Assembly (NCBI RefSeq): GCF_963675165.1
Contig: NC_087377.1
Span: forward strand, 17,216,518 to 17,280,517
Origin: Halichondria panicea
Taxonomy: Eukaryota; Porifera; Demospongiae; Suberitida; Halichondriidae
Length of the DNA: 64,000 bases
Direction of reading: 5' to 3'
Under the pieces are notes generated by a model that was given only the letters and a program-made list of their open reading frames with translations, did not search any database and was not told where the DNA came from. Shown piece after piece: positions 75-58,486 of this stretch (within the stretch, counting starts at the first letter, position 1; each line of letters begins with the position of its first letter). The position numbers were made by a program, and so were the translations under genes.

Positions 75-1293
75 GCTCACAGTGAACAGATTATGCACAA
101 AGATGCTGAGCTGGTCAGGAGAGACGCCATCATTCAACAGCAGAGACAGGTGAGACAAAATGCACCATTATATTATTGCAGAGCTATAGTAGAAGCTTTG
201 ATCTCTTATAATCGTACTGTACATTCTATTAGACTGGTGGGCGTGGCCTCTTAAGCTAATTAAAGAAAGTGATTTAGTGTGCATGCAATTATTGCTACAA
301 GTAACACTTGCTTGTTAGTAGACACTATCCTAATTACACTCATTCATTATTCAGGGTCCCCCTCCCAGAGAGTTGAGACCTTCACTCACTCTGAAATGGA
401 GAAGAGGAAATGACATGCCAATCAAGATGGGTGCCACGGTACAGAGTGTTGTTATCGGTGACACGGTGTATGTTGGTGGAGGGTTTGCAGGCAATGATCG
501 TGACGCGTGTACAGTGATGAAGCTCGAGCAAGATCAATGGACCAAACTACCAAAGTACACTGCCAAGTACTTCGCTATGACATCACTCGCTAATCGACTA
601 GTGCTGGTGGGAGGAATTGATGTAAGAAACAACAAACGCACCAATCAGCTTGCAGTGTTTGAGTCAGGGGAATGGACTCACCCGTACCCACCAATGAACA
701 TTGCTCGTTATTCCTCAACAGCTGTCTCCTTCAACAACCACATCATTGTAGCTGGTGGGCGTGATGATAAAGAAAGCACCTCCTCTGTGGAGGTGTTGGA
801 CGTGGCATCAAGAAGATGGTACATTGCTCAGTCACTACCTAACCCACGATCAGTACTGAAATCGACTCTCATAGGAAACACCCTCTACCTAATGGGAGGT
901 TACGATTACACTGGGATGCCAACCAAGACAGTGTACCACGTCGACCTCGATGAACTAATCGCAAAAGCCCTTTCCCACCAGGACACACCCACTCTCTGGC
1001 AGACCTTACAGGAAGTACCACTCGTGTGGTCAGCTCCTCTCAGTATTGGGAGGTCACTATTAGCCGTTGGTGGACGGGGCGACAGAGGCAACCCAAGTTC
1101 ATCGATCCACCTCTACCAGCCTGACACCAGGAGGTGGGTGAAAGTGGGAGACCTGCCTACTGCACGATATCGCAGCACATGCTCAGTACTTCCTAGTGGA
1201 GAGGTCATTGTAGCCGGAGGACAGACAAAACTAGGAGGATATACAGTTGGTAATTTTGTTCAAACAGTTGATTTCTTTTGTATAAGCGATTAA
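75..1293 (+). CDS. Kelch copy A: C-terminal part of a coiled-coil/Kelch protein, 5' part outside window
   Basis: Two exons are visible: 75-149 (25 residues, coiled coil, core HKDAELVRRDAIIQQQ) and 355-1293, joined by a GT-AG intron in phase 0. The second exon begins GPPPRELRPSLTLKW and encodes a six-blade Kelch beta-propeller. Blade signatures in order are VYVGGG, VLVGGI, IIVAGG, LYLMGG, LLAVGG and VIVAGG, with W anchors in WTKLP, WTHPY, WYIAQ, WQTLQ and WVKVG. The frame is open to the TAA at 1291-1293. Kelch propellers are protein-binding domains, so a recognition role is inferred. By comparison with copies B-F, an N-terminal death-fold or kinase half should lie before base 1. The exon is 939 nt, 9-12 nt longer than in the other copies, because of extra residues in the last blade. 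Confidence 0.85.
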
Positions 1294-1405
1294 TTAGTCA
1301 TTGTAATATGTTGTGCATTGTTAACAATCTTTTTGAAAAAAGTTTTCTAATTAAGTTCGCATATTTCGTTTATTTCTATTGATTTCTTCTCTATAAGTGC
1401 TAATT

Positions 1406-1560
1406 ACCGTATAGCGCGAAATTTTTAAAGCATTTATAATTATTTTGTGGATAGGCCTCTTTTCGTTGCACAATGTTCGCGGAATGACTGCTTACCGGAA
1501 GCCATGCCTTAAATATTTGCACGTTATAAGCAGGTAAGAGAAAATTAAGTTGCAACAGAA
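1406..1560. repeat. Truncated MITE of the ACCGTATAGCG family
   Basis: It begins ACCGTATAGCGCGAAATTTT and continues through an internal stretch that also occurs at 20839-21052 (GTTCGCGGAATGACTGCTTA), but the second terminal inverted repeat is missing. The same truncated copy recurs at about 58600-58735 in the duplicated block. Confidence 0.6.
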
Positions 1561-1665
1561 TTTTATCGCATATAATTATAGTTATTATGATGACATGAAG
1601 TGGTACATACATAATTACATTGCCAGAAAATAGTACAAAAACAGACAAAATAATATTTAACAGTC

Positions 1666-4673: not shown

Positions 4674-4676
<3 letters not shown>

Positions 4677-4706: not shown

Positions 4707-4707
<1 letters not shown>

Positions 4708-5480: not shown

Positions 5481-5554
5481 AATATTTATGAATAACTGTA
5501 CCTTGTTAATGTTCTTGATGAAGGTTCCTCAGTAGTCCCTGTCCATGGACTCAT

Positions 5555-5966: not shown

Positions 5967-6385
5967 ATGTCTGACTATCTCACAATAGCAGATCTAGGAG
6001 ATCTATACACATAGCTGCGTTTGATGCTCGAATCAAGTGGAGAAACTTCTTGCTAGTTCTTAAAATACCCTCGGATATCATTGACAGAATTGGGAAAGAT
6101 TGGAGCAACAATCCTGATGACTGCTATCGTGAGGGTTTGAAAGAATGGCTGAAGGGTGAAGAGAGACGCTGGGAAGATGTTGTCAAAGCTTTGTCCAGTC
6201 CCATTGTGGGCCACGTTCACATAGCTAATACCATCGAGAAAGATCATCTACAGTCTACTGATGCAAGCAATCCTACTGATGTGAAGTCAGAGGGTAAGCA
6301 CTAGTTCAGCACAGGAATGCATATCTCATACATGATGCTTAGTTTATTAGCTAGCTACTATAATATTCACCCGGGTCCCTCTCAT

Positions 6386-6422
<37 letters not shown>

Positions 6423-19605: not shown

Positions 19606-22600
19606 ATGGCCACTCAAGCAACCCCCGACCATTCTCCAGAGTATCTGTCCTTCCAAGATAACTTTGAAGCATTGGTGTCCACATTCAAAGCTCAACCTGC
19701 TGCATACGCTGATAGCCTCTTCTCCAATGGCTACATACCAGATGAAGTTCTCGAGTACTCTAGACTGAATGGAGTTATGGACTCGGATAAATCTCGAAAG
19801 ATTCTGGATACTATCATCCATCGAATTAAGCTCAATCCCAGTGTATTCCACGGCTTTATTGCTGCCATCGCTGGCCCTTCTACTGACGATGTTGTCAAGA
19901 AGCTACACGATAGTTACGAGCGTCACAAGACTGCGACCAGCCGTGTTGAACAGCCGCAACTCTCTCCACCCACACACCAGCAACCTCCACCAGAGGCTCC
20001 GACGTCCTTCAGTTTCCCGTACCTTGACACCTCTAGCCTTGATGAGGATGATAGAATTGAAATGGAGGATCGGCTCATAGCGGATACAACGAAAATGATG
20101 ATTAGGTTCACTGCTTTTACTCTAATTATACAAGAGTCATTTGAAAAACGTATCCCATTGGATAAGATTAAAGATTTTGTTCTCAGCCTCGACGCTTTCA
20201 ACAACGGGATTGGAGTCAAAGTGCTTGATCCACAAGATAAGCAAGAAATCAAAAATGCCAAAAATTTGGCCCAGGTCTTCATGACTCTACGTGATTACAT
20301 CTCCTTCTTCAACTATGAGATAGTGCAGTACCTCATCGAGCTGCTGGGATCACCAGACGACCAAACACAACTGCGTGAGTATTGCTCTGCACTTGATCAG
20401 TTCTGTAAGCGAAATGTGTTTGAAGTTCCGGCCGAAGCTTTCTCTTCAAAATCTCGTATCAAAACGGCTAAAGTGTTTGTTCTCAAGCTCACTGAGCGAT
20501 CGCGAGTAACCACACTGGAGTATGTAAGAAGGCTGACACGAAGAATTGCTGAAGCCCTTGGTCTACAAAGAGCAGCGCTACAACTCTGTTCAATCAAACA
20601 AGGCTGCTTGGAGCTCCACTTTCTCGTCACTGTAGCTGTTGCCAAGTGTATCTACCCAGTGTCCCCTACTGTACAGGCAGCTCTCAGTGCGATGGGGGTC
20701 AAAGTTCTCACCTGTGGAAGTACGGATGAGGTGGAGACATTTCTGCTGGAACAGTAAGTTCTTGAAGAGGCACTATAATTATACCCGTACTCCTGGCATA
20801 ATTATAATAATTATACCGTAACAAGCATGGGCCCTATATACCGTATAGCGCGAAATTTTCGAGGCACTTATATTTCGTGGATTGGCCTCTAAAAGCCATT
20901 TCGTTGTGCAATGTTCGCGGAATGACTGCTTACCGGAAGCCACGCCTTTAAATATTTGCATGATAGCAGGTAATTCTAATTAAAGAACAATATTTAATTT
21001 TCGTGTAGAATTCTAACCCACGAAATCCTCGAAAATTTCACACTATACGGTATATAATTTAAATTACATGAATATAATATTCGTATTATTATAATAATTA
21101 CAAGTATGTACATGTCACGTACAGGGATCTGAACAAACTCAAACTAGAAGGTGTTGAGGAGATGTCTAAAGACACAAGAACGAGCACGACAACCTTCACT
21201 CAAATGAAGGACACTAAAGGTGAGTATTTGGCCAACTTGATTTCCTATAATCTCTCTTTTAGATACAAGAGACTCGGACCCAGTGGAGGCAACAAAGAGG
21301 GAGTCAAAGGACACTCAACCAGTCAAGAAGGTGCGTACATGTAGTGTGATAATGAGATTCCCACAGCAACAATAGTATTGTACCTTAACATGCATGGATG
21401 CTGTCTCATGTGTTAAGCCGTAACTACACATCCGTTTGAGTGTGCCTATAATTATGTACTTCCTTTAGCAGAAATTGTTGTTTGTTCTCGTTCTGTTGTA
21501 GAATTTTCTCTAATGTTATTCATGTCTGTGTTTGATTTCCACCAACGTTCCCCTGTACAGGCACACAGGGAACAAATTGGGCACAAAGATGCTGAGCTGG
21601 TCAGGAGAGACGCCATCATTCAACAGCTGAGACTGGTGAGACAAAATGCACCATTATATTATTGCAGAGCTATAGTAGAAGCTTTGATCTCTTATAATCG
21701 TACTGTACATTCTATTAGACTGGTGGGCGTGGCCTCTTAAGCTAATTAGAGAAAGTGATTTAGTGTGCATGCAATTATTGCTACAAGTAACACTCGCTTG
21801 TTAGTAGACACTATCCTAATTACACTCATTCATTATTCAGGGTCCCCCTCCCAGAGAGTTGAGACCTCCACTCACTCTGAAATGGAGAAGAGGAAAAGAC
21901 ATGCCAATCAAGATGGGTGCCATGGCACAGAGTGTTGTTATCGGTGACACGGTGTATGTTGGTGGAGGTGAGGCAGTCAATGATCGTGACAGGTGTACAG
22001 TGATGAAGCTCGAGCAAGATCAATGGACCAAACTACCAGAGTACACTGCCATGTACTTCGCTATGACATCACTCGCTAATCGACTAGTGCTGGTGGGAGG
22101 ACTTGATCTAAGAAACAACAAACGCACCAATCAACTTGCAGTTTTTGAAGCAGGGGAATGGACTCACCCGTACCCACCAATGAACATTGCTCGTGATTCC
22201 TCAACAGCTGTCTCCTTCAACAACCACATCATTGTAGCTGGTGGGGATGATGATAAAGTACGTACCTCCTCTGTGGAGGTGTTGGACGTGGCATCAAGAA
22301 GATGGTACATTGCTCAGTCACTACCTAGCCCACGATCAATGCTGAAATCGACTCTCATGGGAAACACCCTCTACCTAATGGGAGGGATGGATCACACTTG
22401 GAGTTCAATCAAGACAGTGCACCACGTCGACCTCAATGAACTCATTGCAAAGGCCCTTTCCAACCTGGACACACCCACTCTCTGGCAGACCTTACCGGAA
22501 GTACCACTCGTGTATTCAGCTCCTCTCAGTATTGGGAGGTCACTATTAGCCGTTGGTGGACGGGACGACAGACGCAACCCAAGATCATCGATCCACCTCT

Positions 22601-22770
22601 ACCAGCCTGACACCAGGAGGTGGGTGAAAGTGGGAGACCTGCCTACTGCACGATACAACTGCACATGCTCAGTACTTCCTAGTGGAGAGGTCATTGTAGC
22701 CGGAGGACAGACAAGTGCATATATTAATTATATTCCAACTGTTGATTTCTTCTCTATAAGTGCTAATTAG
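19606..22770 (+). CDS. Gene B: CARD-like/helical domain-coiled coil-Kelch protein (about 771 aa)
   Basis: Five exons with consensus GT-AG borders and consistent phases: 19606-20753, 21125-21219, 21263-21330, 21561-21635 and 21841-22770. Residues about 15-105 look like a death-fold, CARD-type bundle (FKAQPAAYADSLFSNGYIP, MDSDKSRKILDTIIHRIKLN). After a proline-rich linker, residues 145-380 form a helical domain (MTLRDYISFFNYEIVQYLIE, RNVFEVPAEAF, LCSIKQGCLELHFLV). I believe this recurs in sponge and cnidarian death-fold proteins, but that is from memory and unchecked. Residues 438-462 are the shared coil, and 463-771 the six-blade Kelch propeller. The ATG was chosen because it opens the long exon, with no in-frame extension of similar quality. 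No lesion seen. Inferred role: adaptor or receptor coupling ligand recognition by Kelch to death-fold assembly in the cytoplasm; no signal peptide or membrane segment is visible. Confidence 0.8.
20839..21052. mobile_element. MITE, ACCGTATAGCG family, 214 bp, in intron 1 of gene B
   Basis: TACCGTATAGCGCGAAATTT at the left pairs with the complement of TACCGTATAGTGTGAAATTT at the right. The flanks read TATA on both sides, consistent with a TA target duplication. Truncated relatives lie at 1406 and 58600. Confidence 0.8.
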
Positions 22771-26410: not shown

Positions 26411-29400
26411 ATGTTTTCTTTGCGAGATGATGCTGACTTGAGGGAGTTTGTGCTGGAGAATGTGGAGCACTTTGGAGAGGAGAGAGTTCTAGGAACTGGT
26501 TCCTATGGCTCTGTTCAAGAGGTCAGTCACTGCATGCTCTGTTTTTGTGCACTGAGTGTATCTGCTAGCTATTCAAGTGTGACTGCCTCCATGCACAGGT
26601 GATGATCAATGGTGAAGTGTATGCAGCCAAGAAGATCCACGAGGTTCTCCTGGAGACGGACGAGCGTGGTGGAGTGGCCAACCTAGCTGGGAACTACCGC
26701 CGAGAGTGTCGACTCATGGCTCGCATCCGTCACCCCAACATCACCCAGTTTATTGGGCTGTGTTTCGTTACTGGCTCTCGACTGCCCCTCCTGGTCATGG
26801 AGAGGCTAGACTCAAGTCTGGACGATCTCCTGGAGTCCACCCCCAACATCCCCCTCTCTGTCACCCAGTACATTTTGGTCTGTGTGGCTCGAGGGCTGCT
26901 CCACCTGCATCGTGAATCCGTGGTCCATCGTGACCTCACTGCCAGGAACGTCCTACTGACGGCATCTCTGAGAGCCAAGATCACAGACTTTGGTAACTCT
27001 CGTATCGTGAATCTGGAGCCTGGTCGACTTGCCAGGACTCTGACGAGGTTTCCTGGGACACTGGTGTACATGCCGCCCGAGGCCCTCTCTGACAGAGGCC
27101 ACAGTGTGTACGGACCCAGTCTGGACGTCTTCTCTTTCGGAGTGCTACAACTGTTTGCACTCACACAAGTATGTGTGTAGTTAATGATATTCATAGGTTA
27201 GATTCCTGGTGACCATTCATGCAGTGAATTACCTTATAAGTATTGTGGTTGTATGTGTTGGGGAGATCCCCCTTTAATATTGTTGACCTTCAGCAAATGC
27301 ATTTTGTATGTATGATTGTGAATATACGTGCACTCATTTTCTCCAGACATACATAAAAACAATCATGACAGTCAGTATTCACATGTTCTTTCACTCGTGT
27401 CATTGGACTAGGTGTTTCCAGGAGATCTCCTTGCCCCCACGTACAGCGACCCCAACAACCCAGACCACCTCCTGGCTCGCTCAGAGTTTGAGCGTCGAGG
27501 TCCCTACACGGCTCTCCTTGAGAGGAGTCTGGCGGGTGGACGTGAGCACCCTCTGTTTGGTCTGGTGAGGGAGTGTCTGGCCAACACCCCAGAGAGAAGA
27601 CCGACCACCGCTGAGCTCCTCTCGTCTCTGGAGGAGGTGGGGAGGGAGATGGACGGAGGACTGCTCCAGCTGGATATTGCACGAGTGAAGACTGCCAGGA
27701 CCCTCAGGGCAAAGGAGAAGAGGATAGAGGCTCTACAGGTGAGTCCAGTCCAGTGAGCTAGTAGGTGCAAGGGTCTGACACTGCATGCTGTACTCTGTTT
27801 TCAGAGAGAGGTGGTCCAGAAGGACAGGATACTGGAGAGGAAAGATGAGCAAATAGTACAGAAAGATGAGCAACTTACTGAGAAAGATGCACTTCTAGTG
27901 CAAAAAGACAACCAACTCGAACAGAGTGTTGCACTACTGGCACAAAAAGACGATCAACTTGTTCAAAAAGATGAGGAAGTAGCGGACAACGATACTCAGC
28001 TGGCTAGACAGCAACAGGTCAGCAGAACCAGTTTATTTTGTTTATTATAAGCTATTTTGTTCAACAAGCTAGCATGTTGATAATCTTTTTTTATACAGAT
28101 ATTGAATAGTGTCCGTGCTAATGCTGCCACCAAAGATGGTTTGATTGCTGACAAGGACAGACGACTCAGTGAACAAGAGTCAACGATCACTGATCTCATT
28201 TCCCAGAGAGAGGCTGCTCTAGTTGAGAGGGCCGCTCTCTTACAGGTATTATAGTAGTCACCAAATGCACACACTCTTATACGCTAGTATTATACTACAA
28301 TAATGATATTTGTTTGCGTACATGTAGCTAAGTGTGTCGATGAGATTCCAACAATAGTAGTATACCTCAACAATTGATGCTATTGTATAAATCATGTTAA
28401 GCTGCTAAATACACATCCGTTTGAGTGTGCCTATAATTATGTACTTCCTTTAGCGGAAATTGTTGTTCGTTCTTGTTCTGTTGTAGAATTTTCTCTAATG
28501 TTATTCATGTCTGTGTTTCATTTCCACCAACGTTCCCCTGTACAGGCACACAGGGAACAAATTGGCCACAAAGATGCTGAGCTGGTCAGGAGAGACGCCA
28601 TCATTCAACAGCAGAGACAGGTGAGACAAAATGCACCATTATATGTGACAGGCTCTGGGAAAACCAGACTATTGGAGCAGACTAAAATTTTGGTGATTAA
28701 TGTACCAAGTGATAGAGCAGAGCATTGCCTACACAATGATATGCTTAGTGTTCACATACCTAGTTTCATACCCAAGTTATGCGCGTTGGAAACTTGAAGC
28801 CGTAAAATGTAGTATCGAGAAAAACGGCTCTCAAAGATTGCTTAATTAGGAAAAATAAGGTAATAGCGAAAGTTTGGACGAAGCGTTTCGATGGAAAGAG
28901 TTGGACTTAGCGCATCAGATTTTACAGAGAGGTAGTAGGAGGACTGCAGATACTTATACACCAATAACATTTTATTTGAGATTTTATACTGTAGGCATAA
29001 ATTTAGCTGTAGCTCAATACTAAATTCTGCTCCAATAGTCTGGTTTTCCCAGAGCCTGTCACATATTATTGCAGAGCTATAGTAGAAGCTTTGATCTCTT
29101 ATAATCGTACTGTACATTCTATTAGACTGGTGGGCGTGGCCTCTTAAGCTAATTAGAGAAAGTGATTTAGTGTGCATGCAATTATTGCTACAAGTAACAC
29201 TCGCTTGTTAGTAGACACTATCCTAATTACACTCATTCATTATTCAGGGTCCCCCTCCCAGAGAGTTGAGACCTCCACTCACTCTGAAATGCAGAAGGGG
29301 AAAAGACATGCCAATCAAGATGGGTACCTCGGTACAGAGTGTTGTTATCGGTGACACGGTGTACATGTATGTTGGTGGAGGGTTTGCAGACAATGATCGT

Positions 29401-30177
29401 GACATGTGTACAGTGATGAAGCTCGAGCAAGATCAATGGACCAAACTACCAGAGTACACTGCTCAGTGGTTCGCTATGACATCACTCGCTAATCGACTAG
29501 TGCTGGTGGGAGGACGTGATCCAAGAAACAACAAACCCACCAATCAGCTTGCAGTGTTTGAATCAGGGGAATGGACTCACCCGTACCCACCAATGAACAT
29601 TGCTCGTGATTACTCAACTGCTGTCTCCTTCAACAACCACATCATTGTAGCTGGTGGGAATGATGATAAAGGACGTACCTCCTCTGTGGAGGGGTTGGAC
29701 GTGGCATCAAGAAGATGGTACATTGCTCAGTCACTACCTTACCCACGATCAGATCTGAAATCGACTCTCATTGGAAACACCCTCTACCTAATGGGAGGGT
29801 TCGATGACACTAGGGCAATCAAGACAGTGCATCACGTCGACCTCAATGAACTCATCGCAAAGGCCCTTTCCAACCTGGACACACCCACTCTCTGGCAGAC
29901 CTTACAGGAAGTACCACTCGTGTTCTCAGCTCCTCTCAGTATTGGGAGGTCACTATTAGCCGTTGGTGGACGGGACGGAGACAACTCAAGTTCATCGATC
30001 TACCTCTACCAGCCTGACACCAGGCGGTGGGTGAAAGTAGGAGACCTGCCTACTGCACGATACCGCTGCACATGCTCAGTACTTCCTAGTGGAGAGGTCA
30101 TTGTAGCCGGAGGAGAGACAAAACCATTTTATGGTAATTATGTTCAAACAGTTGATTTCTTTTGTATAAGCGATTAA
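26411..30177 (+). CDS. Gene C: kinase-coiled coil-Kelch protein (about 790 aa)
   Basis: Seven exons, all phase 0: 26411-26521, 26599-27168, 27412-27738, 27805-28017, 28099-28245, 28546-28620 and 29248-30177. Residues 20-300 are a protein kinase: glycine loop GTGSYGSVQE, lysine in YAAKKIHE, HRDLTARNVLL, DFGNSR, and PPEALSDRG in place of APE. The HRDLTARN loop points to the tyrosine-kinase-like/tyrosine kinase side. Residues 337-456 form a heptad coiled coil with QKDEQL-type repeats, 457-481 the shared coil, and 482-790 the Kelch propeller. All catalytic residues seen are present, so activity is expected. The coil predicts self-association, and proximity-induced kinase activation by Kelch ligand binding is an inference. 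The last intron holds a 420-bp Tc1/mariner-like insertion, but the splice sites remain. Confidence 0.85.
28644..29063. mobile_element. Tc1/mariner-like MITE, 420 bp, in the last intron of gene C
   Basis: Inverted repeats of 37 bp begin TGTGACAGGCTCTGGGAAAA and end with the exact complement at 29063. TA dinucleotides flank both sides (28642-28643 and 29064-29065). Removing the element plus one TA restores the intron sequence found in all other Kelch copies (CACCATTATATTATTGCAGA). No transposase ORF. Confidence 0.93.
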
Positions 30178-36704: not shown

Positions 36705-37107
36705 ATGTCTGACTATCTCACAATAGCAGATCTAGGAGATCTATACATAGCTACGTTTGATGCTCGAATCAAGTGGAGAAACTTCTTGCTAGTTCTTAAA
36801 ATACCCTCGGATACCATCGACAGCATTGGTACAAAATGGAGAGATGATCCTGATGACTGCTATCGTGAGGGTTTGAAAGAATGGCTGAAAGGTAGTGAGA
36901 GACGCTGGGAAGATGTTGTCAAAGCTTTGTCCAGTCCCATTGTGGGCCACGTTCACATAGCTAATACCATCGAGAAAGATCATCTACAGTCTACTGATGC
37001 AAGCAATCCTACTGATGTGAAGTCAGAGGGTAAGCACTAGTTCAGCACAGGAATCATACAGTCATAATGCTTAGTTCGTTAGCTGCTATAATATTCACCC
37101 CCCCCTC

Positions 37108-37141
<34 letters not shown>

Positions 37142-39595
37142 TATACACACACACAATGTTCTACAGTTGACCAAAACTGCCAGAAGATCAACGATGATTT
37201 GACTGTTTTCTTAGACGAACCTCTCGGTAAAGGTGCATTTGGAGCAGTCTTCAAAGGCAGCTACAAGGGCGAGATATGTGCAGTCAAAGTGCTGCTTCAC
37301 GACGCTATGGAGATGCAGGCAAGTATTCCAATCGGCAAAAACGAAGAAGCTAGCAATGCAATTGATCGTGAGAGTGATTTTCTCAAGTCGTTCCAGCACC
37401 CAAACGTTGTTCAGTTTTTGTCGACTGCCAAGCACCCCAAATCAGGGAGTACAATCCTCGTTGTTGAGCTGATGGATTGCAATCTGAGATCCTATTTCTC
37501 CGGCCTTGATGAAGAGTCCCTCACTAGCGAATGTGAAATTAGCCTCTCCAAAGACATGGCTTGTGGTCTGGCCTACATTCACAGCAAGCAGATTATCCAT
37601 CGTGACCTCTGTGGTGATAATGTCTTGCTGAAGCTTACACGACCAGTGCCTGTCGCAAAGATATCCGACTTTGGCATGTCACGGCTATACGATCCCTCCA
37701 AGCTTAGCCACACCCTCACAGCCATTGGTCACCGTATGGGGTATCTACCTCTCGAGGCTATTCGATTGGACAAGGATAATTACGATGATAGCCTGGATGT
37801 GTTTTCCCTTGGGGTGATTATGGTACAGATTGTTCGCAAGCTAAAGACGATCAAATCTGTGGAAGATCGATCATTCCATGTTGCCCAGATCCCTCACACA
37901 CACAGGTTGAGGAAGCTTATCGACAGTTGCTTGCAAGAAGACATGAGGAGGAGACCATCTGCCAGGGACATCTGTAAGTCAATGATAAGTATGTGTTTTA
38001 CATTTCAGCTAACCGTAACCCTAACGAAAAAATCATATCCGTCTATTAATGTTGGTATCGATTTTCTTTTACTTTAGATGCGGACCTGACAAGGGGCTTA
38101 GACACAGTGGAGGCAACAAAGAGGGAGTCAAAGGACGCTCAACCAGTCAAGAAGGTGCTTACATGTAGTGTGATAATGAGATTCCCACAGCAACAATAGT
38201 ATTGTACCTTAACATACATGGATGCTGTCTCATGTGTTAAGCCGTAACTACACATCCGTTTGAGTGTGCCTATAATTATCTACTTCCTTTAGCGCAAATT
38301 GTTGATTGTTCTCGTTCTGTTGTACAATTTCCACAATGATATTCACGTCTGTGTTTTAGATTTCCACCAACGTTCCCCTGTACAGGCTCACAGGGAGCAG
38401 ATTGAGCACAAAGATGCTGAGCTGGTCAGGAGAGACGCCATCATTCAACAGCAGAGACAGGTGAGACAAAATGCACCATTATATTATTGCAGAGCTATAG
38501 TAGAAGCTTTGATCTCTTATAATCGTACTGTACATTCTATTAGACTGGTGGGCGTGGCCTCTTAAGCTAATTAGAGAAAGTGATTTAGTGTGCATGCAAT
38601 TATTGCTACAAGTAACACTCGCTTGTTAGTAGACACTATCCTAATTACACTCATTCATTATTCAGGGTCTCCCTCCCAGAGAGTTGGGACTTCCACTCAC
38701 TCTGAAATGGAGAAGAGGAAAAGACATGCCAATCGAGATGGGCTACTCGGTACAGAGTGTTGTTATCGGTGACACGGTGTATGTTGGTGCAGGTGGTGGT
38801 GCAGGCAATAATCGTGACATGTGTACAGTGATGAAGCTCGAGCAAGATCAATGGACCAAACTACCAGAGTACACTGCCAAGTACTTCGCTATGACATCAC
38901 TCGCTAATCGACTAGTGCTGGTGGGAGGACGTTATCCAAGAAACAACAAACGCACCAATCAGCTTGCAGTGTTTGAGTCAGGGGAATGGACTCACCCGTA
39001 CCCACCAATGAACATTGCTCGTCATTCCTCAACAGCTGTCTCCTTCAACAACCACATCATTGTAGCTGGTGGGTATGATGATAAAGTACGTATCTCCTCT
39101 GTGGAGGTGTTGGACGTGGCATCAAGAAGATGGTACATTGCTCAGTCACTACCTAACCCACGATCAGATCTGAAATCAACTCTCATAGGAAACACCCTCT
39201 ACCTAATGGGAGTGTTCGATCACACTGGGAGGCCAACCAAGACAGTGCACCACGTCGACCTCAATGAACTCGTTGCAAAGGCCCATTCGAACCTAAACAC
39301 ACCCACTCTCTGGCAGACCTTACAGGAATTACCACTCGTGTATTCAGCTCCTCTCAGTATTGGGAGGTCACTATTAGCCGTTGGTGGATGGGACGACAGA
39401 GGCAACCCAAGTTCATCGATCCACCTCTACCAGCCTGACACAAGGAGGTGGGTGAAAGTGGGAGACCTGCCTACTGAACGATACTACTGCACATGCTCAG
39501 TACTTCCTAGTGGAGAGCTCATTGTAGCCGGAGGAGAGACAATTAATTATAATGTTATTCAAACTGTTGATTTCTTCTCTATTAGTGCTAATTAG
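36705..39595 (+). CDS. Gene D: Death domain-kinase-coiled coil-Kelch protein (about 737 aa)
   Basis: Five exons with consistent phases: 36705-37029, 37167-37973, 38078-38154, 38386-38460 and 38666-39595. Residues 5-95 are a Death domain (LGDLYIATFDARIKWRNFLL, YREGLKEWLKGSERRWEDVV). Residues 125-377 are a kinase: GKGAFGAVFKG, lysine in CAVKVLL, HRDLCGDNVLL, DFGMSR, and PLEAI in place of APE. The HRDLCGDN loop differs from the HRDLTARN of gene C, so this is a separate kinase lineage. Residues 378-403 are a short polar linker (KRESKDAQPVKK), 404-428 the shared coil and 429-737 the Kelch propeller. The Death domain next to a kinase recalls RIPK1/IRAK-type signalling proteins (known families), with Kelch as the sensor (inference). 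The reading frame is intact. Confidence 0.85.
37106..37156. repeat. Interrupted CA/TACA microsatellite
   Basis: CACACACA tracts alternate with ATATACAC just before the kinase-exon acceptor of gene D. Confidence 0.85.
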
Positions 39596-43221: not shown

Positions 43222-46200
43222 ATGTTTTCTTTGCGAGATGATGCTAACTTGAGGGAGTTTGTGCTGGAGAATGTGGAGCACTTTGGAGAGGAGAGAGTTC
43301 TAGGAACTGGCTCCTATGGCTCTGTTCAAGAGGTCAGTCACTGCATGCTCTGTTTTTGTGCACTGTCTCTAGTGTATCTGCTAGCTATTCAAGTGTGACT
43401 GCCTCCATGCACAGGTGATGATCAATGGTGAAGTGTATGCAGCCAAGAAGATCCACGAGGTTCTCCTGGAGACGGACGAGCGTGGTGGAGTGGCCAACCT
43501 AGCTGGGAACTACCGCCGAGAGTGTCGACTCATGGCTCGCATCCGTCACCCCAACATCACCCAGTTCATTGGGCTGTGTTTCGTGACTGGCTCTCGACTG
43601 CCCCTCCTGGTCATGGAGAGGTTGGACTCAAGTCTGGACGATCTCCTGGAGTCCACCCCCAACATCCCCCTCTCTGTCACCCAGTACATTCTGGTCTGTG
43701 TGGCTCGAGGGCTGCTCCACCTGCATCGTGAATCCGTGGTCCATCGTGACCTCACTGCCAGGAACGTCCTACTGACGGCATCTCTGAGAGCCAAGATCAC
43801 AGACTTTGGTAACTCTCGTATCGTGAATCTGGAGCCTGGTCGACTGGCCAGGACTCTGACGAGGTTTCCTGGGACACTGGTGTACACGCCGCCCGAGGCC
43901 CTCTCTGACAGAGGCCACAGTGTGTACGGACCCAGTCTGGACGTCTTCTCTTTCGGAGTGCTGCAACTGTTTGCACTCACACAAGTATGTGTGTAGTTAA
44001 TGATATTCATAGGTTAGATTCCTGGTGACCTTTTATGCAGTGAATTACCTTATAAGTAGTGTGGTTGTATGTGTTGGGGAGATCCCCCTTTAATATTGTT
44101 GACCTTCAGCAAATGCATTTTATATGTATGATTGTGAATATACGTGCACTCATTTTCTCCATACATACAGACATACATAAAAACAATCATGACAGTCAGT
44201 ATTCACATGTTCTTCCACTCGTGTCATTGGACTAGGTGTTTCCAGGAGATCTCCTTGCCCCCACGTACAGCGACCCCAACAACCCAGACCACCTCCTGGC
44301 TCGCTCAGAGTTTGAGCGTCGAGGTCCCTACACGGCTCTCCTTGAGAGGAGTCTGGCGGGTGGACGTGAGCACCCTCTGTTTGGTCTGGTGAGGGAGTGT
44401 CTGGCCAACACCCCAGAGAGAAGACCGACCACCGCTGAGCTCCTCTCATCTCTGGAGGAGGTGGGGAGGGAGATGGACGGAGGACTGCTCCAGCTGGACA
44501 TTGCACGAGTGAAGACTGCCAGGACCCTCAGGGCAAAGGAGAAGAGGATAGAGGCTCTACAGGTGAGTCCAGTCTAGTGAGCTAGTGGGTGCAAGGGTCT
44601 GACACTGCATGCTGTATACTCTGTTCTCAGAGAGAGGTGGTCCAGAAGGACAGGATACTGGAGAGGAAAGATGAGCAAATAGTACAGAAAGATGAACAAC
44701 TTACTGAGAAAGATGAGCAACTTACTGAGAAAGATGTACTTCTTGTGCAAAAAGACGATCAACTAGATCAAAAAGACGGACTTCTGGCACAAAAAGATGA
44801 GCTACTTGTTCAAAAAGATGAGGAAGTAGCAGACAAATATACTCAGCTGGCTAGACTGCAACAGGTCAGCAGAATCAGTTTATTTCGTTTATTATAAGCT
44901 ATTTTGTTCCACGAGCTAGCATGTTAATAACCTTTTTTTATACAGATATTGAATAGTGTCCGTGCTAATGCTGCCACCAAAGATGGTGTGATTGCTGACA
45001 AGGACAGACAACTCAATGAACAAGAGTCAAGGATCACTGATTTCATTTCCCAGAGAGAGGCTGCTCTAGGTGAGAGGGCCGCTCTCTTACAGGTATTATA
45101 GTAGTCACCAAATGCACACACTCTTATACGCTAGTATTATACTACAATAATGATATTTGTTTGCGTACATGTAGCTAAGTGTGTCGATGAGATTCCAACA
45201 ATAGTAGTATACCTCAACAATTGATGCTATTGTATAAATCATGCTAAGCTGCTAAATACACATCCGTTTGAGTGTGCCTATAATTATGTACTTCCTTTAG
45301 CGGAAATTGTTGTTCTCGTTCTGTTGTAGAATTTCCACAATGTTATTCACGTCTGTGTTTTAATTCAAAGATTTCCACCAACGTTCCCCTGTACAGGCAC
45401 ACAGGGAACAGATTGGGCACAAAGATGCTGAGCTGGTCAGGAGAGACGCCATCATTCAACAGCAGAGACTGGTGAGACAAAATGCACCATTATATTATTG
45501 CAGAGCTATAGTAGAAGCTTTGATCTCTTATAATCGTACTGTACATTCTATTAGACTGATGGGCGTGGCCTCTTAAGCTAATTAGAGAAAGTGATTTAGT
45601 GTGCATGCAATTATTGCTACAAGTAACACTCGCTTGTTAGTAGACACTATCCTAATTACACTCATTCATTATTCAGGGTCCCCCTCCCAGAGAGTTGAGA
45701 CCTCCACTCACTCTGAAATGGAGAAGAAGAAAATACATGCCAATCAAGATGGGTACCTCGGTACAGAGTGTTGTTATCGGTGACACGGTGTATGTTGGTG
45801 GAGGTAGTGCAGACAATGATCGTGACAGGTGTACAGTGATGAAGCTCGAGCAAGATCAATGGACCAAACTACCAGGGTACACCACCAAGTGGTTTGCTAT
45901 GACATCACTCGCTAATCGACTAGTGCTGGTGGGAGGACATGATCCAAGAAACAACAAACGCACCAATCAGCTTGCAGTGTTTGAATCAGGGAAATGGACT
46001 CACCCGTACCTACCAATGAACATTGCTCGTTCTTCCTCAACAGTTGTCTCCTTCAACAACCACATCATTGTAGCTGGTGGGCGTAATGAAGAACCTACCT
46101 CCTCTGTGGAGGTGTTGGACGTGGCATCGAGAAGATGGTACATTGCTCAGTCACTACCTAACCCACGATCAGGACTTAAATCGACTCTCATAGGAAACAC

Positions 46201-46603
46201 CCTCTACCTAATGGGAGGGTGGGATCACACTGGGTGTGCAACCAAGACAGTGCACCACGTCGACCTCAATGAACTGATTGCAAAGGCCCATTCGAACCTG
46301 GACACACCCACTCTCTGGCAGACCTTACAGGAAGTACCACTCATGTGGTCAGCTCCTCTCAGTATTGGGAGGTCACTATTAGCCGTTAGTGGACGAGACG
46401 ACAGACGCAACCCAAGATCATCGATCCACCTCTACCAGCCTGACACCAGGAGGTGGGTGAAAGTGGGAGACCTGCCTACTGCACGATACTGCTGCACATG
46501 CTCAGTAGTTCCTAGTGGAGAGGTCATTGTAGCCGGAGGACAGACAAAACTGTTTACTGCATATACTCCAACTGTTGATTTCTTCTCTATAAGTGCTAAT
46601 TAG
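43222..46603 (+). CDS. Gene E: kinase-coiled coil-Kelch protein (about 796 aa)
   Basis: Seven phase-0 exons: 43222-43332, 43415-43984, 44236-44562, 44631-44864, 44946-45092, 45397-45471 and 45677-46603. The kinase half is nearly identical to gene C, with glycine loop, lysine, HRDLTARN and DFGNSR all kept; the activation-end motif is VYTPPEAL where C and F have VYMPPEAL. Exon 4 is 234 nt, one heptad (21 nt) longer than in C and two longer than in F, with extra QLTEKDE and QKD units. The Kelch exon keeps the frame but differs from C at the exposed positions (GGH, ARS, AGGR, MGGW, PLMW, RYCC) and has a three-base shorter loop (RNEEPTSS). Inferred role as for gene C. Confidence 0.85.
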
Positions 46604-49926: not shown

Positions 49927-52900
49927 ATGTTTTCTTTGCAAGATGATGCTGACTTGAGGGAGTTTGTGCTGGAGAATGTGGAGCACTTTGGAGAGGAGAG
50001 AGTTCTAGGAACTGGCTCCTATGGCTCTGTTCAAGAGGTCAGTCACTGCATGCTCTATTTCTGTGCACTGTCTCTAGTGTATCTGCTAGCTATTCAAGTG
50101 TGACTGCCTCCATGCACAGGTGATGATCAATGGTGAGGTGTATGCAGCCAAGAAGATCCACGAGGTTCTCCTGGAGACGGATGAGCGTGGTGGAGTGGCC
50201 AACCTAGCTGGGAACTACCGCCGAGAGTGTCGACTCATGGCTCGCATCCGTCACCCCAACATCACCCAGTTCATTGGGCTGTGTTTCGTGACTGGCTCTC
50301 GACTGCCTCTCCTGGTCATGGAGAGGCTGGACTCAAGTCTGGACGATCTCCTGGAGTCCACCCCCAACATCCCCCTCTCTGTCACCCAGTACATTCTGGT
50401 CTGTGTGGCTCGAGGGCTGCTCCACCTGCATCGTGAGTCCGTGGTCCATCGTGACCTCACTGCCAGGAACGTCCTGCTGACGGCATCTCTGAGAGCCAAG
50501 ATCACTGACTTTGGTAACTCTCGTATCGTGAATCTGGAGCCTGGTCGACTGGCCAGGACTCTAACGAGGTTTCCTGGGACACTGGTGTACATGCCGCCCG
50601 AGGCCCTCTCTGACAGAGGTCACAGTGTGTACGGACCCAGTCTGGACGTCTTCTCTTTCGGAGTGCTGCAATTGTTTGCACTCACACAAGTATGTTGATG
50701 TTATTTATAGTCATGATGACCTTTCATCAGTAAATTATCTTTCAATATACCTTATAAGTATTGTGGTTGTATGTGTTGGGGAGATCCCCCTTTAATATTG
50801 TTGACCTTCAGCAAATGCATTTTGTATGTATGATTGTGAATATACGTGCACTCATTTTCTCCATACATACAGACATACATAAAAACAATCATGACAGTCA
50901 GTATTCACATGTTCTTCCACTCGTGTCATTGGACTAGGTGTTTCCAGGAGATCTCCTTGCCCCCACGTACAGCGACCCCAACAACCCAGACCACCTCCTG
51001 GCTCGCTCAGAGTTTGAGCGTCGAGGTCCCTACACGGCTCTCCTTGAGAGGAGTCTGGCGGGTGGACGTGAGCACCCTCTGTTTGGTCTGGTGAGGGAGT
51101 GTCTGGCCAACACCCCAGAGAGAAGACCGACCACCACTGAGCTCCTCTCGTCTCTGGAGGAGGTGGGGAGGGAGATGGACGGAGGACTGCTCCAGCTGGA
51201 CATTGGACGAGTAAAGACTGCCAGGACCCTCAGGGCAAAGGAGAAGAGGATAGAGGCTCTACAGGTGAGTCCAGTCCAGTGAGCTAGTGGGTGCAAAGGT
51301 CTGACACTGCATGCTGTACTCTGTTCTCAGAGAGAGGTGGTCCAGAAGGACAGGATACTGGAGAGGAAAGATGAGCAACTTACTGAGAAAGATGTACTTC
51401 TAGTGCAAAAAGACAACCAACTTGAACAGAGCGTTGCACTACTGGCACAAAAAGATGAGCTACTTGTTCAAAAAGATGAGGAAGTAGTGGACAAAGATAC
51501 TCAGCTTGCTAGACAGCAACAGGTCAGCAGAACCAGTTTATTTTGTTCATTATAAGCTATTTTATTCAACGAGCTAACATGTTGATAACCTTTTTTTCAC
51601 TTTATACAGATATTGAATAGTGTCCGTGCTAATGCTGCCACCAAAGATGGTATGATTGCTGACAAGGACAGACAACTCAGTGAACAAGAGTCAACGATCG
51701 CTAATCTCATTTCCCAGAGAGAGGCTGCTCTAGTTGAGAGGGCCGCTCTCTTACAGGTATTATAGTAGTCACCAAATGCACACACTCTTATACGCTAGTA
51801 TTATACTACAATAATGATATTTGTTTGCGTACATGTAGCTAAGTGTGTCGATGAGATTCCAACAATAGTAGTATACCTCAACAATTGATGCTATTGTATA
51901 AATCATGCTAAGCTGCTAAATACACATCCGTTTGAGTGTGCCTATAATTATGTACTTCCTTTAGCGGAAATTGTTGTTTATTCTCGTTCTGTTGTAGAAT
52001 TTCCACTAATGATATTCACGTCTGTGTTTTAATTTAAAGATTTCCACCAACGTTCCCCTGTACAGGCTCACAGGGAACAAATTGAACACAAAGATGCTGA
52101 GCTGGTCAGGAGAGACGCCATCATTCAACAGCAGAGACAGGTGAGACAAAATGCACCATTATATTATTGCAGAGCTATAGTAGAAGCTTTGATCTCTTAT
52201 AATCGTACTGTACATTCTATTAGACTGGTGGGCGTGGCCTCTTAAGCTAATTAGAGAAAGTGATTTAGTGTGCATGCAATTATTGCTACAAGTAACACTC
52301 GCTTGTTAGTAGACACTATCCTAATTACACTCATTCATTATTCAGGGTCCCCCTCCCAGAGAGTTGAGACCTCCACTCACTCTGAAATGGAGAAAAGGAA
52401 AAGACATGCCAATCAAGATGGGTCACTCGGTACAGAGTGTTGTTATCGGTGACACGGTGTATGTTGGTGGAGGGTTTGCAGACAATGATCGTGACATGTG
52501 TACAGTGATGAAGCTCGAGCAAGATCAATGGACCAAACTACCAGAGTACACTGCCAAGTACTTCGCTATGACATCACTCGCTAATCGACTAGTGCTGGTG
52601 GGAGGGAAAGATCCAAGAAACAGCAAACCCACCAATCAACTAGCAGTGTTTGAATCAGGGGAATGGCCTCACCCGTACCCACCAATGAACATTGCTCATT
52701 CTCACTCAACAGCTGTCTCCTTTAACAACCACATCATTGTAGCTGGTGGGTGGGATGATAAAAAACGTATCTCCTCTGTGGAGGTGTTGGACGTGGCATC
52801 AAGAAGATGGTACATTGCTCAGTCACTACCTAACCCACGATCAGTACTGAAATCGACTCTCATAAGAAACACCCTCTACCTAATGGGAGGGTTCGATCAC

Positions 52901-53272
52901 ACTCTGAGTGCAACCAAGACAGTGTACCACGTCGACCTCACTGAACTCGTTGCAAAGGCCCATTCGAACCTGGACACACCCACTCTCTGGCAGACCTTAC
53001 AGGAAGTACCACTCGTGTTCTCAGCTCCTCTCAGTATTGGGAGGTCACTATTAGCTATTGGTGGACGGGACGACAGATACAACTCAAGTTCATCGATCTA
53101 CCTCTACCAGCCTGACACCAGGCGGTGGGTGAAAGTAGGAGACCTGCCTACTGCACGATACTACTGCACATGCTCAGTACTTCCTAGTGGAGAGGTCATT
53201 GTAGCCGGAGGACGGACAAAACCATTTGGTAATTTTGTTCAAAGAGTTGATTTCTTTCGTATAAGCGATTAA
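49927..53272 (+). CDS. Gene F: kinase-coiled coil-Kelch protein (about 782 aa)
   Basis: Seven phase-0 exons: 49927-50037, 50120-50689, 50938-51264, 51331-51522, 51610-51756, 52066-52140 and 52346-53272. The kinase motifs are identical to gene C (GTGSYGSVQE, YAAKK, HRDLTARN, DFGNSR, MPPEAL). Exon 4 is 192 nt, the shortest of the three; it lacks the EQIVQKD heptad. The promoter region is unlike that of C and E because of the inverted-repeat elements and E-boxes at 48600-49735. The Kelch face differs again (GGK, AHSHS, AGGW, MGGF, PLVF, RYYC). The protein ends in SISD/RISD-type sequence (VDFFRISD), as A, C and G do, whereas B, D and E end in SISAN. Confidence 0.85.
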
Positions 53273-55059: not shown

Positions 55060-56838
55060 CTCTGCGCACTTAAGGCCCGGGTCCAGATTTTAATACCAAA
55101 ATTTACACTATGTTCATACTGCTGTATTATTTGCAATATACAGTGTATGCTGCATCAAAATGATCCAAAATGAAGCTCAATGTTTTCTTTTTCCAAAAAA
55201 CTAATTAGATTAATTCAATTATGCTAATTAGTCCCGTAAATGGTGATGACGTCATGCCACTTTCAGAAAGAGAAGTGCAAATACGGCGTTGAAGATGCCA
55301 AGATTAAGCTTCAAAAACAAGGCTAGATGAACATCTCATAGCTAGGTACTAGTATCCTTGATGGGAAGAGTAGGAGTTATTGTATTCTTGAGATACACAA
55401 AATAGCCTACCTCTAGGGTGGCTGTCAGAGCTAAAGAAGCTAGCATAGCTAAGAAAGTTTTGGACATTTTTACTTCCCATCAAGGAAACATAATCATAAC
55501 AACATACTCTATCTTTTGAGGGCCTAAACAGCTACTCTTACCTTGTTTAAGTCCGCCGTATTTGTTGCCAAAGATAATCTATAATAGTTCTAGCAGCTAG
55601 CTAAGCAAATACATTGACCTTATGACGTCACATGCAATGAATAACATTAATAAACATTATGAATCTTATTAACACTATAGTGCATGTCAGCATGCATGGC
55701 CATATTGCATAATATGCAACTTAGGAATGTAAACTAAATAGGACTTGACAATTAATTTTTAAACTTACGGCATATTATATATTACATATTTATCTACAGT
55801 TTGGCTGATTCAGTTTCCATGGAAACTCTTGTAATTACAAACCACGACTATAATTAAAGAAGTAATTGATTTTCAAACTTTCTTGAATAACCGACATTGT
55901 ATTATGTTTGGTATCATAATATTTGGGGTATACTGACTTATAGCACATGTACTTACACTTTATAGAGAGATTTTATTGAAAACATGCAGTAAAGATATTT
56001 TACAATTATTAATTAACTTTATGGGTACATATTTTGAATTTATATCATGTTCAATAAGGATTATGATATCAACTTCAAACCAGGGTGATTAATTCAATTA
56101 ACTGCTAATAGACAACACTATAGAGAGTTTTTATCATTTGTACAAAAGAAATGAAAAAAAAGTGGGAGTACAAAGATAAAATTACTCATTGATACTTATG
56201 CGTCTATGGGACAAGCATGCCTTCTTGTATTTCTTAACTTGTTCATCAGAAACTTGGAGTCTAATGAAAGCTCATCAGTTTCAGTTGAAACATTAAGATC
56301 AGGAAGTGAGGAATCACCATCATCAGATCGTGAACTTTGTGAGAGTTTTGCCTTCTTTGTAGCTCTGGCTTGCTGCAGATGCTTGCTTCTCTTGTTTGTA
56401 CGAGGCATGAATAGCTCAGGAGACAATGGATTAATGGCAGAAATAGCTAGCTAGCTAGAAATAGCTATTAAATCAGAGCTAGTGAAAAACATCTATTTTG
56501 TATCTAAAAAGAAAAAATACGTTGCCATGGCGATGACGTCAATCGCGTCATAATTGCCCACACATTTTTGCCTTTTTTGGTGGGCCACTCTATATCTCCA
56601 GAAATACTTACTCAAATGAAATTTCGAAAAAACCATTAAATAGAGCTCTGCAAAAGCTGATGATTGACACTAACTTTACCACAAAAATGTGTTTACTACG
56701 TGAATGACATGCAATGCAAATTATGGCCACTTATGGTGAATTGCACTATACATGATCTTCTACATGATCTACATAAAATGTTGGCAATGAATAAAATTAA
56801 TCTTATCAGTGCCTGACCCAGGCCTTAACTGCGCAGAG
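55060..56838. mobile_element. DNA-transposon-like insertion, 1.78 kb
   Basis: The termini CTCTGCGCACTTAAGGCCCG and the complement of CTCTGCGCAGTTAAGGCCTG are inverted repeats of about 24 bp. The flanks AC (55058-55059 and 56839-56840) suggest a 2-bp duplication. Units 2 and 6 read continuously through the site (GTAGTCTACTGG), so the insertion is specific to this unit. The interior has no recognisable transposase. It carries one small basic ORF (next entry) and long AT-rich stretches. Superfamily not assigned. Confidence 0.85.
56196..56408 (-). CDS. Small basic protein inside the 1.78-kb element (70 aa)
   Basis: It starts MPRTNKRSKHLQQARATKKA, then SQSSRSDDGDSSLPDLNV, and ends RRHACPIDA-stop. 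An in-frame ATG six codons upstream exists, but MPRTNKRS is the more likely start. The N-terminus is strongly basic and looks like a nuclear or nucleic-acid-binding tail, followed by a serine/aspartate-rich acidic part. I recall MPR-K-R-HL--AR starts in ORFs of invertebrate DNA transposons but cannot name the family. It may be the remaining first exon of a transposon gene. Confidence 0.45.
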   Translation of the reverse strand: MPRTNKRSKHLQQARATKKAKLSQSSRSDDGDSSLPDLNVSTETDELSLDSKFLMNKLRNTRRHACPIDA

Positions 56839-57279
56839 ACTGGCGCACTCTTCAACATACTATTTAAAAGTTTCAAACAGCTTTCCAGACCATCCAAACA
56901 AAATCAAATGCGTCCTATAGGAACAGTGTACATGAAAATGTTGGCAGTAGGTATATCCTATCAGGCTATTAAATAACAACACTATCACTCACTCATCATC
57001 CTGAGTTTGTCATCAGACTTGCATCTTTACGAGCAGCTTCGTCATGTAGGATCATCTGATTGGCCAGGGACTTGCCCTCTGCACCTCCTCAGCAATGGTC
57101 TCTCTCCATGGTCCTGGCTATGTCACTGTGGCCCACAATGGGACTGGACAAAGCCTCCAGGCAATAGATTTTGGCCATGCTTCAAAATGTGATTTGCTGA
57201 TTCAGCATTGTTATTGCAGAAAAGGGGGCGTATCTTGGTAGAGATCCAACCCTCTGCGCTGCGTAGGTTGGTTGGACCG

Positions 57280-58486
57280 GCACACAGGAAATAGATTGAG
57301 CACAAAGATGCTGAGCTGGTCAGGAGAGACGCCATCATTCAACAGCAGAGACAGGTGAGACAAAATGCACCATTATATTATTGCAGAGCTATAGTAGAAG
57401 CTTTGATCTCTTATAATCGTACTGTACATTCTATTAGACTAGTGGGCGTGGCCTCTTAAGCTAATTAGAGAAAGTGATTTAGTGTGCATGCAATTATTGC
57501 TACAAGTAACACTCGCTTGTTAGTAGACACTATCCTAATTACACTCATTCATTATTCAGGGTCCCCCTCCCAGAGAGTTGAGACCTCCACTCACTCTGAA
57601 ATGGAGAAGAGGAAAAGACATGCCAATCAAGATGGGCATCTCGGTACAGAGTGTTGTTATCGGTGACACGGTGTATGTTGGTGGAGGGTTTGCAGACAAT
57701 AATCGTGACAGGTGTACAGTGATGAAGCTCGAGCAAGATCAATGGACCAAACTACCAAAGTACACTGCCAGGTGGTTCGCTATGACATCACTCGCTAATC
57801 GACTAGTGCTGGTGGGAGGAATTGATCCAAGTAACAACAAACCCACCAATCAACTAGCAGTGTTTGAATCAGGGGAATGGACTCACCCGTACCCACCAAT
57901 GAACATTGCTCGCCATTCCTCAACAGCTGTCTCCTTCAACAACTACATCATTGTAGCTGGTGGGCGTGATGATAAAGTACGTATCTCCTCTGTGGAGGTG
58001 TTGGACGTGGCATCAAGAAGATGGTACATTGCTCAGTCACTACCTAACCCACAATCAGAACTGAAATCGACTCTCATAGGAAACACCCTCTACCTAATGG
58101 GAGGGTGGGATCACACTAGGGGGGCAATCAAGACAGTGCACCACGTCGACCTCAATGAACTCATTGCAAAGGCCCTTTCCAACCTGGACACACCCACTCT
58201 CTGGCAGATTTTACAAGAAGTACCACTCAAGTTCTCAGCTCCTCTCAGTATTGGGAGGTCACTATTAGCCGTTGGTGGACGGGACGACAGAGACAACTCA
58301 AGTTCATCGATCCACCTCTACCAGCCTGACACCAGGAGGTGGGTGAAAGTGGGAGACCTGCCTACTGCACGAGACTGCTGCACATGCTCAGTACTTCCTA
58401 GTGGAGAGGTCATTGTAGCCGGAGGACAGACAAAACTATTTGGTAATTATCTTCAAACAGTTGATATCTTTTGTATAAGCGATTAA
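57280..58486 (+). pseudogene. Kelch copy G: 5'-truncated coil/Kelch module
   Basis: Coil exon 57280-57354 has a TAG at codon 5 (GCA CAC AGG AAA TAG, 57292-57294), where the other copies have GAACAG. Before it there is no kinase, death fold or linker: sequence of minus-strand unit 7 runs to about 57250 and then a short CCAACCCTCTGCGCTGCG stretch leads straight into the exon. The Kelch exon 57560-58486 itself is fully open (302 codons from an internal ATG, six blades, GGI, ARH, AGGR, MGGW, PLKF, RDCC). A Kelch-only protein from an internal start is conceivable. Otherwise it could act as a donor of sequence for gene conversion. Confidence 0.7.

Follow-up and report, generated by a model that had tools for sequence, protein, structure and literature searches.

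What makes seven Kelch exons that lie close together in a sponge genome differ from one another at a few residues of each blade? The exons, A to G, are located in a 64-kb stretch of Halichondria panicea DNA, C1:17216518-17280517, where C1 denotes the contig NC_087377.1; this whole stretch is referred to as the window. A sequence-only reading of the window had noted that the variable residues occupy the places that contact the substrate in KEAP1, and had proposed that the propeller face is under diversifying selection, as in an immune or self/non-self recognition system. As described below, diversifying selection at the predicted ligand registers is strongly supported. The exons belong to a large germline-encoded family, and we consider it rather probable that this family consists of probably cytosolic, NLR-like recognition receptors built on a Kelch scaffold and has an immune role.

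Kelch exons of the window

All seven exons were present at the places given by the sequence-only reading, and each frame was uninterrupted:

355..1293, + strand: Kelch exon A, six blades, ends at the stop (open frame stop-to-stop 334-1293)
21841..22770, + strand: Kelch exon B (stop-to-stop 21820-22770)
29248..30177, + strand: Kelch exon C (stop-to-stop 29227-30177)
38666..39595, + strand: Kelch exon D (stop-to-stop 38645-39595)
45677..46603, + strand: Kelch exon E (stop-to-stop 45656-46603)
52346..53272, + strand: Kelch exon F (stop-to-stop 52325-53272)
57560..58486, + strand: Kelch exon G, no effector module found upstream (stop-to-stop 57539-58486)

The start of exon A, 355, is the first base past a presumed TTCAG acceptor and is preceded by seven codons of the open frame. 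The exon alignment shows six Kelch blades, with their GG pairs, the best solved relatives are Kelch proteins, and Pfam detected Kelch repeats in both of the window exons that were scanned (two of the seven). The codons and residues listed by the earlier reading at eight positions were correct on re-reading.

Positive selection on the Kelch codons

The selection set consisted of 66 distinct copies of the exon (59 unique) in an alignment of 315 codons. The test was a custom grid empirical-Bayes procedure of the MG94 type (kappa 2.03, global omega, the ratio of replacement to silent rates, 0.905), not PAML or HyPhy, and its statistic, twice the gain in log likelihood (2dlnL), has no calibrated null. 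A codon was called hot at a posterior probability (PP) above 0.95; the hot list is post hoc, and the seven sites named by the sequence-only reading are the cleanest prior set.

With the 59 unique copies, 37 of the 315 codons were under positive selection, and 2dlnL for allowing the replacement rate (beta) to rise above the silent rate (alpha) was 402. Because tracts are exchanged between copies, the test was repeated with one tree per blade, which gave 35 hot codons and a 2dlnL of 243; 33 codons were common to both treatments. Counting that uses no tree gave a replacement divergence (dN) of 0.584 and a silent divergence (dS) of 0.120 at the 37 hot codons, and 0.040 and 0.082, respectively, at the other codons, while the divergence of the intron preceding the Kelch exon was 0.080. 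The 120 bases past the stop diverge by 0.359 overall, a value that mixes non-homologous classes of 3' end. Within one class, the downstream divergence is 0.075 and that of the introns, for these pairs, 0.071, which indicates that the intron is a fair yardstick. The two main classes of 3' end, ISD and SAN, comprise 24 and 25 of the 59 unique copies at a threshold of 0.15, and their downstream sequences are unlike.

Among the seven window copies, the 33 codons that are hot under both treatments showed 452 replacement and 7 silent pairwise codon differences, and the remaining 282 codons showed 477 and 264. At the seven prior sites, the 52 unique copies outside the window gave 7271 replacement against 23 silent pair differences; the pattern is therefore not due to chance. 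In the site-wise analysis, no dN/dS at or below 1 was found at these sites.

The signal did not depend on the 3' part or on gapped columns, although both restrictions were chosen at a late stage of the analysis. Codons 1-285 alone gave a 2dlnL of 360 with 29 hot codons, 26 of which were hot in both treatments with dN 0.640 and dS 0.103; the 260 gap-free codons among codons 1-285 gave 229 with 22 hot. The copies on C6 and C28 (16 copies, 15 unique, with 5 of the 16 shared with the main set) were also analysed alone, and the 15 unique copies gave a 2dlnL of 27.7 with 10 hot codons, of which 8 are among the 33; the other two are codons 8 and 303. The case for diversifying selection at the face registers thus stands, with dN far above both the silent and the intron rates and robust to per-blade trees and to the gap and 3' exclusions. 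The accompanying statement that the rest of the exon is nearly frozen was too strong: in the 59 unique copies the other codons have a dN/dS of about 0.48 (0.040/0.082), and the scaffold outside the 37 hot codons is moderately constrained.

Location of the selected codons

The GG pair and the residue before the next strand presumably correspond to those of KEAP1, as judged from alignments to solved Kelch proteins and from the KEAP1 sequence. The available text of PMC6891428 gives by residue number the KEAP1 contacts Phe478/Tyr525/Tyr572 and Ser508/Ser555/Ser602, and arithmetic on these numbers shows that both series repeat every 47 residues and lie 17 residues apart. In the query, the first residue after GG is at codons 51, 95, 143, 190, 248 and 297, and subtraction of 17 gives 34, 78, 126, 173, 231 and 280; the spacing of 17 was applied to define this set of 12 after the per-codon entropy was already known. 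Ten of the 12 codons were hot with per-blade trees (p = 4.5e-9). The exceptions were 297 (PP 0.93) and the blade-4 codon 173, which is not variable and is adjacent to the hot codon 174. As many as 32 of the 35 hot codons of the per-blade treatment fall within the 66 codons of the post-GG loops and pre-strand segments.

In the 65 unique copies outside the window, the twelve register codons had dN 0.703 and dS 0.143, compared with 0.073 and 0.101 elsewhere, and when the register was displaced by 18 different shifts from -6 to +23, dN reached only 0.018-0.214. By this assignment, most hot codons appear to occupy the two positions of each blade whose KEAP1 counterparts touch the ligand, which suggests that the propeller face may serve as a binding site. 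The following hypervariable codons of copy G are examples:

57821..57823, + strand: codon 95, first residue after GG in blade 2
57914..57916, + strand: codon 126, residue after AR, KEAP1 Ser508 register
57965..57967, + strand: codon 143, first residue after GG in blade 3
58292..58294, + strand: codon 252, loop after GG in blade 5

Family size and genomic layout

A search with exon G found at least 126 homologous Kelch exons in the 131 Mb genome (the best 126 of 458 candidates, referred to as scored exons), and 123 of them have no in-frame stop within the matched part, 3 having one. One array of 1.9 Mb, C1:15.48-17.39 Mb, holds 102 scored copies at a median spacing of 9.1 kb, with 53 copies on the minus strand (15.48-16.13 Mb) followed by 49 on the plus strand (16.71-17.39 Mb); the 0.57 Mb middle part between the two arms is without a scored Kelch exon. 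The other copies comprise 18 on C6 at 0.48-0.80 Mb, 2 on C1 near 11 Mb and 4 on C28. Haplotype duplication was rejected as the origin of the copies, as only 7 pairs among the 59 unique copies differ at 1-6 codons and all others differ at 13 or more. At C6:0.49-0.53 and 0.65-0.69 Mb, kinase exons recur about 159 kb apart with scores that match, the result either of a recent segmental duplication or of a duplicate in the assembly.

Gene architecture and N-terminal modules

Where enough upstream DNA was at hand, the usual layout was an N-terminal module, then a small coiled-coil exon, CC3, and then the Kelch exon. Three types of module were distinguished: K1, a kinase from the first residues plus a coiled coil; DK, a Death-like domain plus a kinase; and NT, a single exon. 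For 119 of the 126 scored Kelch exons, a module was found on the same strand at most 9 kb upstream, without a second scored Kelch exon in the interval, namely DK for 69 (median distance 661 bp), K1 for 38 (1652 bp) and NT for 12 (862 bp). With a separate upstream module for each of these 119 exons, a Dscam-like arrangement in which Kelch cassettes are spliced in a mutually exclusive way was rejected. The modules and linkers around the window exons are the following:

C1:17214689, before the window start: K1 kinase exon ahead of Kelch exon A
19606..20754, + strand: NT module of gene B, single exon with a GTAAGT donor able to join CC3 in frame
21564..21632, + strand: CC3 linker exon of gene B
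26411..28245, + strand: K1 module of gene C, kinase (3 exons) and two coiled-coil exons
28549..28620, + strand: CC3 linker exon of gene C
36705..37984, + strand: DK module of gene D, Death-like domain exon and kinase exon
38389..38460, + strand: CC3 linker exon of gene D
43222..45092, + strand: K1 module of gene E
45400..45468, + strand: CC3 linker exon of gene E
49927..51756, + strand: K1 module of gene F, the copy scanned with Pfam
52069..52140, + strand: CC3 linker exon of gene F
57283..57333, + strand: CC3-like stretch ahead of Kelch exon G
63211..64000, + strand: DK module truncated at the window end; it belongs to the following gene, whose Kelch exon is in locus L010

A further DK module with CC3 at 5967-8018 of the window has no Kelch exon behind it; its matches are in different frames, and the copy looks broken.

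The kinase of the DK module matched Pkinase of Pfam (E 1.5e-37), and its lysine, HRD and DFG motifs can be read in the translation. Pfam Death was matched by 3 of the 7 Death-like members (best E 0.031), and a profile built on the Death-like domain finds the Death domains of FADD (E 0.004). The K1 kinase has 48 copies at 85% protein identity or more, 31 of which are on C1 at 97-100%.

In-frame splice paths from module to CC3 were predicted in one window gene per module type, and module, linker and Kelch exon would then be carried by one transcript per gene. In the three joined models, hydropathy reveals neither a signal peptide nor a membrane segment: the highest 19-residue Kyte-Doolittle mean is 1.57 (in NT), and none reaches 1.6. 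The proteins are therefore probably cytosolic.

Selection on the kinase and Death-like exons

The upstream exons were analysed in the same manner. The DK kinase exons (16 unique) diverge by 8.8%, which is similar to the Kelch exons, and gave omega 0.71 and a 2dlnL of 8.5 with 1 of 276 codons hot. The Kelch exons of DK-bearing loci (19 unique, from loci that overlap with the DK kinase set but are not identical to it) gave a 2dlnL of 98.2 with 19 of 315 codons hot. For the K1b kinase exon (6 unique), omega was 0.24 and 2dlnL 0.0, compared with 23.6 for the Kelch exons of the same six genes. The K1c exon (16 unique; omega 0.63, 2dlnL 0.0) and the Death-like exon (5 unique; omega 0.71, 2dlnL 0.5) had no hot codon. 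Positive selection is nearly absent from the kinase exons of these genes.

Exchange among copies

Mixing was analysed with 52 of the 59 unique copies, 7 near-duplicates being dropped. The correlation of pairwise distances between blades was weak (Spearman -0.19 to 0.37), 1367 of 2775 pairs of backbone sites failed the four-gamete test, and the use of per-blade trees raised the log likelihood by about 1439. Linkage at less than 40 bp, a test picked after a Spearman test over distance had failed, gave an r2 of 0.112 against 0.032 in permuted data, and 0 of 1000 permutations were as high; linkage did not extend beyond about 40 bp. The hot-site strings are all different among the 52 copies, and locus L018 is a chimera whose hot sites are those of window copy B in blades 2, 4 and 5 and those of window copy C in blade 6. 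The number of codons per amino acid was 1.138, lower than the simulated 1.246 +/- 0.029, which fits the copying of existing codons between genes.

The type of module does not track the Kelch phylogeny. On a Kelch tree of 50 of the 59 unique copies, from which near-duplicates and copies without a module had been dropped, the module type changed 19 times, compared with 20.2 for shuffled labels (327 of 1000 as low). The Kelch exons of L020 (DK module) and L028 (K1 module) differ at 6 codons; in each of the other 10 closest Kelch pairs, with up to 34 differing codons, both members have the same module.

Comparison with known systems

Animal NLRs are multicopy and combine a variable C-terminal sensor with alternative N-terminal effectors. 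The Kelch family is likewise multicopy, with a variable C-terminal sensor and alternative upstream modules, and would also be intracellular if the hydropathy reading is right. The DK module resembles the IRAK/Pelle and RIP-type kinases, in which a Death domain goes with a kinase; it differs in being multicopy and in preceding a Kelch sensor.

The closest evolutionary parallel is found in a fungus. In the available parts of PMC1805685 and PMC4986451, the NWD family of Podospora (HET/NACHT/WD40; het-d, het-e and het-r) is described as having positive selection at four positions per WD40 repeat, as including allorecognition genes, and as having different N-terminal modules and exchange between members; according to PMC1805685, selection acts on the upper face of the propeller, within the b-c turn and the d-a loop. 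The two families thus have in common propeller sensors, selection at loop positions, varied N-terminal modules and exchange between members, and in our own reading the Kelch hot registers may be the same kinds of loop as the b-c turn and the d-a loop. The evolutionary mode is already known from the fungal NWD genes. As far as those sources go, the present family differs in that the propeller is Kelch and not WD40, no NACHT was found, the effectors are kinase and Death-like modules, and there are at least 126 copies compared with ten members; the exchange in Podospora is among near-identical internal repeats, whereas here it is between genes.

With KEAP1 and the KLHL proteins, the family shares the six-bladed Kelch domain, and its variable positions are at the ligand-contact registers of KEAP1 as these appear in the available text of PMC6891428. 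It differs in being hypervariable within one genome, in having kinase effectors and in that no BTB or BACK was found. Pfam scans of one window copy per module type gave a kinase, a weak Death match or nothing, and found none of BTB, BACK, NACHT and NB-ARC. Titles and abstract openings among the open-licence literature matches listed contained no hypervariable Kelch receptor family, and the literature search found no paper on a sponge Kelch expansion. To our knowledge, this combination of scaffold, effectors and scale has no precedent.

Proposed function and alternative explanations

In the mechanism that we propose, the C-terminal six-bladed propeller, attached in most genes by a short coiled-coil linker to an N-terminal signalling module of one of three interchangeable types, would bind its target with the upper face. 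Selection would keep changing the face residues with the scaffold held moderately constant, and the exchange of short tracts would mix face residues and pass Kelch sensors from one effector type to another. Once a target is bound, kinase or Death-like modules would be drawn into proximity and a defence response would follow, the ligands being most likely intracellular microbial or viral ones. An immune or self/non-self role becomes likelier because of the effector modules, the copy number and the exchange, and immune recognition is ranked first because of the copy number, the probable cytosolic location and the presence of kinase and Death-like modules. In its wider form, the proposal is of an animal-lineage NLR-like system without a NOD module, in which more than 100 Kelch propellers, hypervariable at the KEAP1-type pocket, are exchanged among kinase, Death-like and NT effectors and make up an inherited, antibody-like library of intracellular binders; we give this form about an even chance.

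If it is true, the Kelch propeller joins the leucine-rich repeat, WD40, immunoglobulin and lectin folds as a scaffold of large recognition repertoires, probably in an animal without adaptive immunity, and the parallel with the fungal non-self receptors suggests that propeller faces have been recruited for recognition repeatedly. Because the KEAP1 pocket has been studied extensively as a drug target, existing assays could be used to seek ligands of the receptors. Strong selection, gene exchange and effector swapping at one locus would also make a natural laboratory for the building of receptor repertoires.

Several points weigh against the immune interpretation or parts of it. The fungal self/non-self proteins show the same selection on the face, and microbes are therefore not the sole possible target. 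As to the architecture, 7 of the 126 scored Kelch exons have no recognised module, the 9 kb downstream of a DK copy contain no scored Kelch exon in 44 of 113 cases, and the splice joins of module, CC3 and Kelch exon are predictions. The Death-like domain scored 13.9 bits against Pfam Death, under the cut-off of 22.6, and the NT module is without a Pfam or PDB match. As to selection, codons from about 297 on sit where the 3' end classes diverge, which makes hot calls there less certain; the surface exposure of the hot residues is assigned by the KEAP1 register alone; and the DK kinases (omega 0.71) and K1c (0.63) are weakly constrained, strong constraint being seen only in K1b (0.24). As to exchange, the Spearman correlation of linkage with distance over all distances was not significant (50 of 500), and a poorly resolved tree could partly explain the misfit between module type and Kelch tree.

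Among the alternatives, the one that survives best, although we regard it as unlikely, is allorecognition, in which the Kelch faces would recognise either one another or polymorphic self proteins, with the kinase modules setting off the rejection of foreign tissue or fused cells. The Podospora NWD genes described above (PMC1805685, PMC4986451), with positively selected face loops and allorecognition genes among them, are in its favour as far as those texts go. It is less easily reconciled with the lack of a signal peptide or membrane segment apparent by hydropathy in the three models, and a count of at least 126 copies in one genome is more than allorecognition loci usually need.

Sensing of symbionts or the environment, in which the repertoire would recognise ligands of resident bacteria or diet and tune signalling, is somewhat less likely still. 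In its favour, in the available text of PMC6208332, genes of two sponges named only "Kelch motif containing" responded strongly to microbial ligands. However, those genes dropped on exposure and may be unrelated, and the near-saturated replacement at the face codons suggests conflict and not stable partners.

A targeted mutator that rewrites the face codons, as in diversity-generating retroelements, is suggested by several hot codons (e.g., 34 and 53) that vary at bases 1 and 2 while base 3 is fixed, but we consider it very improbable. The third-base entropy of 0.468 is not unusual for a codon model with the estimated rates (simulated 0.525 +/- 0.056; 14% of the simulations were as low), the prevailing third base changes from site to site (A, C, G or T), and fourfold sites vary at hot codons as they do elsewhere (0.059 and 0.058).

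The weakest explanation, that relaxed constraint, alignment error or gene conversion yields a false signal, can point to the extensive exchange (1367 of 2775 four-gamete failures and the likelihood gain of the per-blade trees), to loop-length variants that leave some alignment columns uncertain and to the downstream divergence of 0.359, but it is largely refuted by the intron yardstick, since relaxation cannot surpass the neutral rate and the tree-free dN of 0.584 is set against 0.080 in the intron, while the downstream value falls to 0.075 within one 3' end class, the signal persists in gap-free columns, and the kinase exons are nearly without it.

Related gene families elsewhere in the genome

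Relatives of the NT module at 27-49% identity, mainly over NT residues 130-370, are numerous outside the array (including C5:2.73-3.09 Mb), and by this similarity NT appears to belong to a widespread unnamed domain family. At C3:0.87-1.73 Mb there is a dense array of kinase genes that are 45-50% identical to the K1 kinase, with open frames mostly of 460-590 aa; it may represent a further receptor family that has a variable part of its own. A genome search for NACHT gave matches of which the best 102 of 265 candidates were considered, and none of these 102 lies at C1:15.48-17.39 Mb. Clusters of matches occur at C13:4.06-6.31 Mb, C7:1.5-4.2 Mb and C14:5.39-5.48 Mb, and a large NLR-like set of the conventional kind is thus probably present in this genome in addition to the Kelch family.

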